A DNA stretch of 64,000 bases, taken from contig NZ_CP082333.1 in the NCBI RefSeq assembly GCF_019890935.1, positions 1,390,001 to 1,454,000 on the forward strand, read 5' to 3'. Both the position numbers and the translations under genes were made by a program. The notes under the pieces are model-generated. The model worked only from the letters and a program-made list of their open reading frames with translations. It was not told the DNA's origin and ran no database searches. Origin of the DNA: Exiguobacterium acetylicum. GTDB lineage: Bacteria > Bacillota > Bacilli > Exiguobacteriales > Exiguobacteriaceae. Positions 51,989 through 59,179 of the stretch are shown one piece after another; positions within the stretch are counted from its first letter, which is position 1, and every line of letters begins with the position of its first letter.

Positions 51989-52513
51989 ATGAACGCTATG
52001 GACGCAATCATAAAAAGAAAAAGCATACGTCATTTTACGACCGAGCAAATCAAAGAAGAAGAATTGAAGCAATTGATTCATGCAGCAAATGCAGCACCAA
52101 TCAGTGGAGGAGGGCTGTCGGATTCGGATTCAGCCCGGCATATCACAGTCATTCAAAATCCAGCATTACTGGATACCTTATCAACCGCTGTTTCGAGCAT
52201 AATACCCGTTCCGCAGCCGTTCTATGGAGCACCCACCTTGTTGATTGTCTCGGCACCGCAAAACAAATACCAAGCAGAGCAATTGGACGCAGCATTAGCA
52301 CTTCAAAACATGTCGATTGCTGCGACGAGTATAGGACTGAACTCCGTCACGATGAACGGTGTCATCTACGCCTTGAATGCGACAGCATCTCTACGACAAG
52401 ACCTTGATATCCCTGAAAATTATTCACCATTCATTGCCCTGGCGGTTGGATACACGGATGACCCATCTGTCAAAGAACGACATTTCCATGACGACAATGT
52501 GAGTTACCTTTAA
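51989..52513 (+). CDS. nitroreductase-family FMN enzyme
   Basis: 174-residue flavoprotein: MDAIIKRKSIRHFTTEQIKE (FMN-binding Arg/Ser), AANAAPISGG, GAPTLLIVSAPQN, ALQNMSIAATSIGLNSVTMN, FIALAVGYTDD. Reduces quinones, nitro compounds or similar electrophiles using NAD(P)H. AAAGGAGGC precedes the ATG. Divergent from an HxlR gene and followed by a tautomerase gene, a redox-stress module like the YodB/YodC type in Bacillus. Confidence 0.9.
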   Translation: MNAMDAIIKRKSIRHFTTEQIKEEELKQLIHAANAAPISGGGLSDSDSARHITVIQNPALLDTLSTAVSSIIPVPQPFYGAPTLLIVSAPQNKYQAEQLDAALALQNMSIAATSIGLNSVTMNGVIYALNATASLRQDLDIPENYSPFIALAVGYTDDPSVKERHFHDDNVSYL

Positions 52514-52547
52514 TTAATCAAATCTAACAAAAAAGGGGACGAAAAAT

Positions 52548-52745
52548 ATGCCACTCATTACAATCGAAATCGGACCGGTCACGAAAGAACAAAAAGCAGC
52601 GTTAGTCAAAGAACTTGTTACGAAAGCGAGTGAAATCACGAAAGCACCGGAGGAGAGCTTCTTGACCTTCATCAAGGAAAATCCATTCGATAATGTCGGA
52701 AACGGAACTCGATTACTTTCGGAAATCATGAACGAACGAAACTAA
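52548..52745 (+). CDS. 4-oxalocrotonate tautomerase-like protein
   Basis: 65-residue single-domain tautomerase: Met-Pro start (PLITIEIGPVTKEQKAALVK), so Pro1 becomes the catalytic base after Met removal, then the family helix KELVTKASEITKAPEES. Forms oligomers. AAAAAGGGGACG precedes the ATG, 34 bases after the nitroreductase gene, same operon. Confidence 0.88.
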   Translation: MPLITIEIGPVTKEQKAALVKELVTKASEITKAPEESFLTFIKENPFDNVGNGTRLLSEIMNERN

Positions 52746-52840: not shown

Positions 52841-53416
52841 TTAAAAGATCGTGATGGCTGAATACAAAATCAACGTACACATGATGACGCGAAACGCGAC
52901 ATCGTACTTTTGAAATAACGAACGAAACAGAGAGCCACTTCCTGCCCAAAGCAATAAGGCAATCCAACCGAGAATGATGGCATACGAAGTGTATTGAACG
53001 ATTTCTATAGTAGACGTGCTATGCGGCAGAATGAACGTCGATAAAGCAGTTAAGAAAAAGAGGATACTCTTGACGTTGATGAGTTGGAACAACAGACCGG
53101 ATAAAAATGTCGCTGGCACGGTATCGACCTGACTTGCTGTCTGTTTTGGGAAACCAATCTTATAGGCAAGGTAGACGAGGTATGCGGCACCGAGCCACTG
53201 AAGAATCGGTTCGATCATAGGTAAGGCCGCTTGTAATACTGTCGTCCCTAATGCGCTGATCAACCCGAGTATCATGAACCCCAGTAAGATTCCGGTATTA
53301 AATCGCCAAGCACCACGAAAACCGAAGTGGCTCGATTCATGCATGACTAACAGATTACTTGGTCCAGGTGTAATGGACGTAATGATGACATAAGATAAAA
53401 GAGCAACAATATTCAT
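52841..53416 (-). CDS. LysE/RhtB-family amino acid exporter
   Basis: 191-residue permease with about six membrane helices. The N-terminal TSITPGPSNLLVMHESSHFG is the family's TPGP(N/S)N motif. It exports an amino acid or similar small molecule; substrate unknown. ATG at 53416 follows AAAGGAG. The adjacent divergent LysR regulator is the usual partner, but the two genes leave no promoter space between them. Confidence 0.9.
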   Translation of the reverse strand: MNIVALLSYVIITSITPGPSNLLVMHESSHFGFRGAWRFNTGILLGFMILGLISALGTTVLQAALPMIEPILQWLGAAYLVYLAYKIGFPKQTASQVDTVPATFLSGLLFQLINVKSILFFLTALSTFILPHSTSTIEIVQYTSYAIILGWIALLLWAGSGSLFRSLFQKYDVAFRVIMCTLILYSAITIF

Positions 53417-53432
53417 AAGAAAACTCCTTTTC

Positions 53433-54287
53433 TTGAAGATCATTGAGACAGGGAGTTATACGGCAGCTGCGAGTGAACTTGGCTACACGCAATCGACAAT
53501 CACGTCCCATATGCAATTGCTCGAGCAAGAAGTAGGCGGTGCTTTGTTTTTCTATGCCAATCGTACACTTCAGCTTACACCTTTAGGTCAGGAAATCATC
53601 CCGTTAGCTGAAGACTTACTAGCGACACATGAGAAAATTAAGTCGATTCAACAACAGGATTCCTTTGAAGGCGTCTTGAAAATCGCTGCGCCAGAGTCAC
53701 TGACGATCTCTCGTCTTGGTTCCGTCTTACAGACGTTCATGACAGCATATCCGAATATCAACATCATCTTATCGAATGGAACTTGTAAGGAAAATCAAGA
53801 CGAACTCTTACATGGACGGGTCGATGTCGCCTTGATGCTGTATCCAATGTTTTCCGCTGAACGTTGTACGCATGATGTTTTGACAGAAGAGAAGATCGTC
53901 ATCATTGGTCATCCGACGATGCCGGATCATTTTGACGCGATTCGATCTTCCGCGGACACATACGTCTATCTGACGAATGAAGACGGATGCAGTTACCGAA
54001 TGATGTTTGAGGCGTGCGTCAGCAACCAAGACATCTCGTTTCAGACACAGGAATTGTGGAGTATCGGGGCAATCAAGAAGATGGTGATGAACGGTCTGGG
54101 TTTTGCTGTGTTACCGTATGTGACGGTAGCAGATGAAGTGGAAGCAGGTGCGATAAAAATCATTCAACATGATGAGACGTTTGAACCGATGTATGCCCAT
54201 CTGCTTACGAAACAGTCGAAGTGGGGCTCACCCGTGACACGCGCGTTTCAGGAAATCGTCCTCGACCAATTCATGAAGTCAAAATGA
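53433..54287 (+). CDS. LysR-family regulator, N-terminus apparently truncated
   Basis: 284 residues from TTG at 53433. Helix-turn-helix: GSYTAAASELGYTQSTITSH, followed by LEQEVGGALFF and a substrate-binding domain. LysR proteins normally start about 10 residues earlier (M-x-L-x-x-F-x-x-I-x-E-x-GS). Here the frame is open back only to 53394 (RKLLFLKIIETGS), with no ATG/GTG/TTG start and no ribosome site, and it runs into the LysE start codon at 53414-53416. A deletion in the divergent promoter region is the simplest reading. Could still be made from the TTG. Confidence 0.75.
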   Translation: MKIIETGSYTAAASELGYTQSTITSHMQLLEQEVGGALFFYANRTLQLTPLGQEIIPLAEDLLATHEKIKSIQQQDSFEGVLKIAAPESLTISRLGSVLQTFMTAYPNINIILSNGTCKENQDELLHGRVDVALMLYPMFSAERCTHDVLTEEKIVIIGHPTMPDHFDAIRSSADTYVYLTNEDGCSYRMMFEACVSNQDISFQTQELWSIGAIKKMVMNGLGFAVLPYVTVADEVEAGAIKIIQHDETFEPMYAHLLTKQSKWGSPVTRAFQEIVLDQFMKSK

Positions 54288-54530
54288 ATCGAGTATCTCG
54301 ACCCAAACTTGATAATAGATTTCTTCATCGAGGTGAACCGTTGCCGACCGTACACGATAGTCTGGGTTTTCCGCTAAATAAAAAGCAAGAATCGTCGCGA
54401 CTTTAAAGTCAGGGGTGCAATATCCGGTGATTGAACGACCATGAATCTCATTCGTGATCGAGTCCGCCCAAACTTCGGCTTCACGAAATGTCTCGAACTG
54501 AATCATCTCTTCCTTCCAACGAATCGCCAT
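54279..54530 (-). CDS. small hypothetical protein
   Basis: 83-residue soluble protein, MAIRWKEEMIQFETFREAEV onward, with GYCTPDFKVATILAFYLAEN and YQVWVEILDSF. ATG at 54530 follows GAGGAGG at a proper distance; an ATG six bases earlier is too close. Its stop overlaps the end of the convergent LysR gene by 9 bases. Family unknown. Confidence 0.65.
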   Translation of the reverse strand: MAIRWKEEMIQFETFREAEVWADSITNEIHGRSITGYCTPDFKVATILAFYLAENPDYRVRSATVHLDEEIYYQVWVEILDSF

Positions 54531-54606
54531 CTGCATGTCCTCCTCTACTGTAGTTAATGTTAGTATATGGAAGAAATAGTGTGTTACTCAAGGGGGAACG
54601 TCAGAC

Positions 54607-55881
54607 ATGAGTCGTTTTGGAATACATCAGGAAGTAATCAATCCGCCGCTCGGTGCCGCCTTCATCGGTTATCACCGAGAAGAAGGTGTCGCGAGCATAC
54701 ACGATCCGCTATATGTCACAGCGAGCATCTTTGAGAGCGAGCAGACGACATCGGTTTTCGTCAGCATCGATAACATCGGGTTGCTCGTCGCAGATACCAA
54801 TATCATCCGTGAAGGCATCGCGGACCGGCTAGACGTGTCGAAGGAACAGGTCACGGTCGTCTACACGCATACGCATTCGGGACCAGCGACAGCGGGAACT
54901 GAACCGTTGACCGTCGCCTATAAAACGATCTTGACGCAACAAGTGATCGTTTCTGCCGTCAAAGCAAGCGAAGCGATGCAACCGGTCGAGATGGGTTGGG
55001 GTGTGACGTCCGGAAAACTCGGCGTCAACCGACGAGAGAAAAGGAATGGTCACGCGGTGATGGGGACGGATCCGCTTGGGATGACGGATGACCGAATCGG
55101 CACACTGTTGGTTCGCCGTGCCGATGATGCGAGTCTCGTCGGAGCCTTCGTTTTCTGTACAGCGCATCCGAACGTCTTGAAATCAGACAGTATCGTCTTA
55201 TCCGGTGATTACCCGGGCGTCGCTCGAACGATCCTCGAACAGGCACTCGGTTGTCCAGTCGTGATCATCCAAGGGGCGACGGGAAACGTCAATGCGAAAT
55301 ATCGCGGTGACCTAGCAAGTCTACAGAAGATGGCGTTTGCTTTAAGTGGATACGTCTTGACGACGATTCCAGACGTATCGTTTCAACCGTTAACGCAACA
55401 CCGGATTCAGTCTGTGATTTATCCGATGCGCTTAACCAAAGTACCGGTTGCGGACGTATTGCAAGACATGGCGACTTACGCTGAACAGACATGGGGCGTC
55501 AGCGCAGCACGCTGGTTGGCGTACGTTCAAGAGCAATCGGGAACAAGACTCACCATCCCTGTCGAAGTTCAATTGTTTGAACTAAATGAGGGTTCGTTCT
55601 CAGGCATCCCGATGGAGCCGTTCTGTGAGACAGCGCTACAGATTCAACAGATGCGTCAAACGGAACTCGCATTCTTCGGAGGATATACGAACGGTTACAT
55701 CGGTTACTTGCCGACTGCGGAAGAACACCCGTATGGTGGGTACGAGGTGGCAATCAATCCCGTCGTCTACGGTCCTGTGACGGGTCTATGGATGCCACCT
55801 GTACCGGAAACGGCAAACGGCATCGTGAGTCACATCCGACAACTCTATGAAACGAACAACAACCCGGCTTCTCTCGTCTGA
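54607..55881 (+). CDS. neutral/alkaline ceramidase-like protein
   Basis: 424-residue protein resembling the N-terminal domain of neutral/alkaline ceramidases: GIHQEVINPPLGAAFIGYHR, ASIFES, VVYTHTHSGPATAG (zinc-ligand His region), FCTAHPNVLKSDSIVLSGDY, VVIIQGATGNVN, FGGYTNGYIGYLPTAEEHPY. No signal peptide is visible, and the C-terminal ceramidase domain is missing, as in many bacterial members of unknown substrate. A hydrolase acting on an amide is inferred. AAGGGGGAACG precedes the ATG. Confidence 0.8.
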   Translation: MSRFGIHQEVINPPLGAAFIGYHREEGVASIHDPLYVTASIFESEQTTSVFVSIDNIGLLVADTNIIREGIADRLDVSKEQVTVVYTHTHSGPATAGTEPLTVAYKTILTQQVIVSAVKASEAMQPVEMGWGVTSGKLGVNRREKRNGHAVMGTDPLGMTDDRIGTLLVRRADDASLVGAFVFCTAHPNVLKSDSIVLSGDYPGVARTILEQALGCPVVIIQGATGNVNAKYRGDLASLQKMAFALSGYVLTTIPDVSFQPLTQHRIQSVIYPMRLTKVPVADVLQDMATYAEQTWGVSAARWLAYVQEQSGTRLTIPVEVQLFELNEGSFSGIPMEPFCETALQIQQMRQTELAFFGGYTNGYIGYLPTAEEHPYGGYEVAINPVVYGPVTGLWMPPVPETANGIVSHIRQLYETNNNPASLV

Positions 55882-58145: not shown

Positions 58146-58290
58146 TGCCATCATCTTTACCTTGTCACATGGCGTTATTCGTTCGTATACTTAGTTCAAC
58201 TACATATCAATTGGTTTTCTAGGGTTCCGTAGCTATCAGCTGGACTGGTCCGAGAGAAAACGTATGATTTTCGAATCATATACACGGAAG

Positions 58291-58337
58291 GAGAAAAGCC
58301 TGGGAGATGTCTTCACGACGTCCCTCGGGCTTTTCTC
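58291..58337. terminator. terminator ahead of the hydrolase gene
   Basis: GAGAAAAGCCTGGGAGA pairs with TCCCTCGGGCTTTTCTC with one mismatch, loop of 13 bases. Ends transcription from the broken gene and lies 20 bases before the next start codon. Confidence 0.75.
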
Positions 58338-58357: not shown

Positions 58358-59179
58358 ATGAAAGTTTATGAACAAGGAGCAGTAACCATTTACCAGAGCG
58401 CACTTTGGAAAACGACGAGCACGATCTACGAGGGTGAACAATTCATTCTGCTTGTCGATCCGACATGGTTGCCACAAGAGGTCGAGGAGATTCGAAGCCA
58501 TGTCGAGCGAATCCGCCGAGAACGGCCATTGTATCTTTTATTCACTCACGGCGACTTTGATCATATCATCGGCTACGGTGCTTTTCCGGATGCTCAGGTC
58601 ATTGGAAGTGAGAAGATGCAGCATCATCCGAAAAAAGACTATAAGTTAGGGTTGATTGCTGACTTCGATCGCGAATATTATATCGATCGCTCGTATCCGA
58701 TCACGTTTCCGACGATTGATCATGTCATTTCAAGGAATGGTCAACAGTTGATGATCGGAGAGACGACATTAACGTTCTACTTGGCGCCTGGGCACACCCC
58801 AGACGGGCTCTTTACTGTCATTGAACCAGCAGGTGTCTGGATTACAGGTGATTATCTATCGGATTTTGAACTACCCTATTTATTTGATAGTGCCAAAGCG
58901 TATCTGAAGACACTGGACCAAGCAGAGGAAATCGTTGATCGTCATGGCATCACTTTACTGATTCCCGGTCATGGTGCCTGGACGACGAATCTGAATGAGA
59001 TGAGAGAACGGACACAGCAAGGGCGCGCTTATCTAACGCGATTAATCGAAGCCGTACGGATCGACGATGCCTTGATGATGGAGCAAATCGGGCAAGAAAT
59101 GGACTATCCGTCATCCTTTACAAGAGAATGTCATCAAGAAAATATCGCAATCATTAAGAAGGAACTAGCATTCCTGTAA
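58358..59179 (+). CDS. metallo-beta-lactamase-fold hydrolase
   Basis: 273-residue soluble metal-dependent hydrolase. Metal motifs in order: THGDFDHIIGYGAF (HxxxDH), APGHTPDGLF, ITGDYLSDFEL, IPGHGAW. The canonical first motif is HxHxDH; here the second His is replaced by Asp or shifted (HGDFDH), as in some glyoxalase-II-like subgroups. AAGAGGAGG precedes the ATG. Substrate unknown. Confidence 0.88.
   Translation: MKVYEQGAVTIYQSALWKTTSTIYEGEQFILLVDPTWLPQEVEEIRSHVERIRRERPLYLLFTHGDFDHIIGYGAFPDAQVIGSEKMQHHPKKDYKLGLIADFDREYYIDRSYPITFPTIDHVISRNGQQLMIGETTLTFYLAPGHTPDGLFTVIEPAGVWITGDYLSDFELPYLFDSAKAYLKTLDQAEEIVDRHGITLLIPGHGAWTTNLNEMRERTQQGRAYLTRLIEAVRIDDALMMEQIGQEMDYPSSFTRECHQENIAIIKKELAFL

Follow-up and report, generated by a model that had tools for sequence, protein, structure and literature searches.

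In the stretch of Exiguobacterium acetylicum DNA analysed here (64,000 nucleotides in full, hereafter the window), a lysE-type exporter gene and a lysR-type regulator gene stand head to head with next to nothing between them, and a deletion of about 140 bp very likely took away their control region, leaving lysR as a recent 5'-truncated pseudogene and lysE as an intact but uninduced gene (table 1). Events of this kind are well known as ordinary gene loss and decay, and the present one adds a further example; it appears to be a clean and recent case in which one short deletion would both disable a regulator and uncouple its target. In the long run, the operator predicted here for this Exiguobacterium LysR should be more useful than the deletion.

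Table 1. Features at the lysE–lysR junction (positions in the window).
Feature	Position	Strand	Basis or remark
lysE-type exporter gene, 191 aa	52841..53416	-	PF01810; start codon ATG 53416-53414
Shine-Dalgarno-like sequence AAAGGAG of lysE, retained	53424..53430	-	7-nt match, 7 nt before ATG
Deletion junction	53429..53432	.	breakpoint ambiguous by 2 bp (TT); alignment and count
lysR, with start codon and codons 2-8 missing	53430..54287	+	PF00126 and PF03466 matches; comparison with intact homologues
TTG, sole remaining common start codon ahead of the HTH	53433..53435	+	Leu10 in the four intact genes

The deletion and the intact pairs

A close LysR (E <= 1e-25) is encoded in five of the 19 genomes of the genus, i.e. 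in the window's own, in the uncultured Exiguobacterium MAG S3C400_SP29 (G012), in E. indicum HHS 31 (G015) and in two outgroup genomes (G009 and G011), with identities to the LysR of the window of 94%, 93% and, for both outgroups, 64%. A matching full-length LysE, encoded divergently to lysR, is found in the same five genomes; LysE matches in G008 and G013 are weak and only partial. Sixteen loci came from a further search, and 14 of these were distant (25–34% identity) and were left out of the comparison. In all four intact pairs, which are two pairs of close relatives and thus represent in effect two lineages, an ATG-started LysR ('MEIRHL..FLKIIET') follows a control region, and the ATG, a Shine-Dalgarno sequence and a putative LysR box are present throughout.

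The two nearest relatives have the same lysE–lysR arrangement as the window and encode proteins that are 94–96% (the MAG; loci L037/L066) and 93–95% (E. indicum; L038/L067) identical to those of the window, with LysE alone at 96% and 95%. Unlike the window, however, both have the control region as well as the ribosome-binding site and ATG of lysR. In the alignment the window lacks 141 bp present in the MAG and 140 bp present in E. indicum, with flanks that match on both sides of one clean gap, and this bears out the original prediction that the divergent promoter region had been deleted. The gap spans the ATG and codons 2–8 of lysR, its AAAGGAG Shine-Dalgarno sequence and all of the intergenic control region; the presumed lysE promoter, picked by eye, and the palindromic T-N11-A sequence of the putative LysR box also lie in the deleted stretch. 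The same prediction had the start codon and the first ten residues missing, of which the loss of the start is confirmed and the residue count has to be corrected as given above. It also described the two genes as fused head to head: the orientation is correct, but they do not form one product, since 13 bases lie between the first base of lysE and Phe9 of lysR and lysE still has its own ribosome-binding site and ATG.

A junction shared by relatives would have spoken against a deletion in this lineage. At up to three mismatches, however, it is present in one of the 19 genomes, the window's own, and absent from the other 18, all of which belong to other species (one genome per species, including that of the window). 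Since all four other pairs have an ATG-started LysR after a control region and two of them align with the window across one clean gap, the junction is, on this comparative evidence, neither a chance arrangement nor normal variation. That each species is represented by one genome would also fit a change confined to a single strain, or an assembly or sequencing error as the origin of the 140-bp gap, yet such an error is very improbable: a gap of this kind would be unusual inside a long contig, the genome (3.39 Mb) is rated 100% complete in three contigs, and the joint carries a natural 2-bp match. Slippage or end-joining at this match perhaps produced the deletion in the lineage of the window.

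G009 and G011 resemble the MAG and E. indicum in control region and LysR N-terminus, so that comparison with these outgroups indicates that the long form with the control region is ancestral. The reverse order of events, with an ancestral short junction and a gain of 140 bp by insertion in the relatives, has nothing in its favour and is refuted by these two genomes, which at 64% LysR identity also share the box, and retains next to no probability.

A regulator gene without its start codon

The lysR frame is open from 53394, right after a stop codon at 53391–53393, and Phe9 (53430) is the first lysR codon that is retained. Between this stop codon and the HTH, the frame contains no ATG, GTG or CTG. 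A start at the remaining TTG (53433) would cost LysR nine residues, including positions 1–8 of the 60 positions of HTH_1, and there is no Shine-Dalgarno sequence at this TTG, with the 18 bases upstream of it matching AAAGGAGGTG over 3 nt at most. With this start, the HTH_1 profile PF00126 is matched at positions 9–60 of 60 in an 89-aa piece and at positions 10–60 in the whole protein, versus positions 1–60 in the intact homologue of the MAG. The corresponding scores of 52.2 versus 51.8 bits are practically equal, so that the profile score alone is no argument against function; it is well above the cut-off of 26.6 bits and makes the origin from the LysR family clear, but the N-terminal winged HTH domain itself is truncated. 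The C-terminal substrate-binding domain (PF03466) is matched at positions 3–208 of 209 (E 5e-29). The nearest solved structures by sequence to the TTG-started protein (E <= 1e-10, n = 3), i.e. CcpC, NtcB and a Rubisco operon regulator, carry no information on the junction.

Relative to its intact orthologues, lysR has thus lost its start codon and its ribosome-binding site. As in other 5'-truncated (promoter-deletion) pseudogenes, the frame has stayed open after loss of the start, the ribosome-binding site and the promoter region; unlike in the usual cases, one deletion hits two divergent genes, with a loss of coding sequence in lysR only. Having no start codon, no ribosome-binding site, no recognised promoter and an incomplete first DNA-binding helix, lysR is most likely a recent pseudogene. 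An alternative is a shortened but working LysR that starts at TTG 53433 and is transcribed, with no autoregulation, from a weak promoter that lies within lysE, lysE being constitutive or driven from elsewhere. We consider this unlikely. Open frames and low dN/dS values (see below) as well as the HTH profile, most of which is still matched, would be in line with it, and so would a weak plus-strand promoter-like site at 53385–53413 (9 of 12) just upstream of the truncated gene, with AATATT as its second hexamer in the window and AACATT in the MAG and in E. indicum. However, promoter-like sites in this region occur at chance level (3 found versus 3.8 expected), TTG 53433 is without a Shine-Dalgarno sequence, the first part of helix 1 (PF00126 positions 1–8) is lost, the box is gone from the genome of the window at 0–1 mismatch, and low dN/dS would be the same under recent loss or retention. 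For lysE, the consensus scan detected no minus-strand promoter-like site in the window upstream to 54561, which says little, since the control region of E. indicum, which is intact, gave no such site either, and the scan did not report the lysE promoter picked there by eye.

The pair could also have been re-wired rather than killed, with LysR starting at TTG 53433 or at an unusual ATA start a little further upstream (53409 or 53415) and the two 5' ends being cross-controlled via overlapping transcripts. Here, the antisense strand of the lysE start encodes a possible substitute for the first helix (IFIRKLLFLK versus MEIRHLISFLK), and on the longer upstream LysR frame PF00126 scores 55.9 bits versus 51.8 for the intact homologue; all the same, we regard re-wiring as highly improbable.

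Under the preferred reading, i.e. decay of lysR upon deletion of the control region, the exporter gene remains as an intact coding sequence. Its product carries a PF01810 domain across most of its length, as is characteristic of LysE-type translocators (residues 11–179, profile positions 1–175 of 193, 68.4 bits with a cut-off of 25.6, E 7e-19); the nearest NCBIfam model is PRK10323 (cysteine/O-acetylserine transporter), which at 121 bits stays below its cut-off of 193. With the regulated promoter gone, lysE would be silent or would need transcription that enters across lysR. Overall, both genes are probably silent in the window.

The predicted LysR operator

LysG/LysE of Corynebacterium consists of a divergent LysR-type regulator and its exporter target gene. 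The intact Exiguobacterium relatives agree with it in the order of the genes, their head-to-head orientation and the presence of a T-N11-A box, whereas the window has lost the control region common to both genes together with the start of the regulator gene. In an intact pair, LysR would bind to the palindromic T-N11-A box and repress its own gene from there, and together with an inducer it would activate the lysE promoter; LysE may then export a small metabolite, perhaps a cysteine-type amino acid. A literature search yielded no paper on a LysR/LysE pair in Exiguobacterium and, for promoter deletion of LysR genes, nothing seemingly relevant among the matches listed.

The predicted box is a palindrome of the T-N11-A form, CCATC-N9-GATGG, which is identical but for one base across the four intact pairs; CCATCATTTNTTTCGATGG occurs exactly, in one copy per genome, in all four. 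Such a T-N11-A box is absent from the lysE–lysR junction of the window, and the genome of the window has no copy of CCATCATTTNTTTCGATGG at 0 or 1 mismatch, with one 2-mismatch site elsewhere. Seven 2-mismatch sites occur in six genomes of the genus, i.e. in the window's own and in five of the 14 genomes that lack a close lysR, versus one site for the reversed control pattern. One 2-mismatch copy is located at G000:C1:2423881-2423899.

In all four intact pairs the centre of the box is found at -64 of the presumed transcription start of lysE, a figure that assumes the by-eye promoter TTTATT-17-TACA(A/C)T. According to PMC8407307, such LysR boxes are often located around -65. In E. indicum, however, the scan also lists the box as a terminator-like hairpin pointing in the direction of lysE, and an operator role is therefore not its sole reading. 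For a known riboswitch in the control region, no Rfam hit in L038 or L039 reached the gathering score.

Selection and loss of the pair in the genus

Neither the lysR nor the lysE frame contains frameshifts or stops. For lysR, dN/dS is 0.16 between the window and the MAG, 0.21 between the window and E. indicum and 0.18 between the MAG and E. indicum; it is also low for lysE, and neither dN/dS nor codon differences give a direct or clear sign of relaxed selection on the two genes. Against G009 and G011, lysE yielded no usable dS. Neighbouring genes served as a control with three pairwise values only, i.e. 0.16 for a tautomerase-like gene (window/MAG), 0.06 for the small gene 54279–54536 and 0.26 for the gene 54607–55881 (both window/E. 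indicum). When codon differences unique to one of these three genomes are counted as synonymous/non-synonymous, lysR shows 8/5 in the window, 16/9 in the MAG and 17/14 in E. indicum, and lysE shows 8/6, 8/0 and 11/4, respectively. For lysE there is a tendency to more change in the window, but the numbers are too low for a conclusion. Taken by themselves, open frames and low dN/dS would suggest either that the deletion is recent or that selection persists. Since the operator, the ribosome-binding site and the start codon have gone at one stroke, along with some of helix 1 and the putative promoters, recent loss is far more likely than continued selection.

Loss of the pair seems to be tolerated in Exiguobacterium, where it is often absent, as judged from the five of 19 genomes with a close lysR and from a relic that consists of the last 33 codons of lysR alone in at least three others. 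This relic is found in G016, G002 and G018 (L041, L042 and L043), i.e. in three species without a lysE–lysR pair, with identities of 97%, 91% and 91%, respectively. Its left boundary is identical in all three, which suggests one older and separate loss of the pair.

In the window, nitroreductase-like and tautomerase-like genes (51989–52745) lie between a TetR-type gene and lysE. Both are present in the MAG; in the 4-kb stretch of E. indicum (L038) they have no match and the TetR-type gene adjoins lysE. At its other end, lysR overlaps with the convergent small gene 54279–54536 by nine bases at the 3' ends (54279–54287), and a terminator-like hairpin is located at 54285–54305, by the 3' end of lysR. 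Further along the window, a guanidine-I riboswitch aptamer (RF00442, 89.5 bits) is found at 58208–58308 on the plus strand. The frame 58358–59179, about 50 bases downstream of this aptamer, encodes no obvious guanidine carboxylase or exporter and by eye resembles a hydrolase of the metallo-beta-lactamase fold (HGDFDH).
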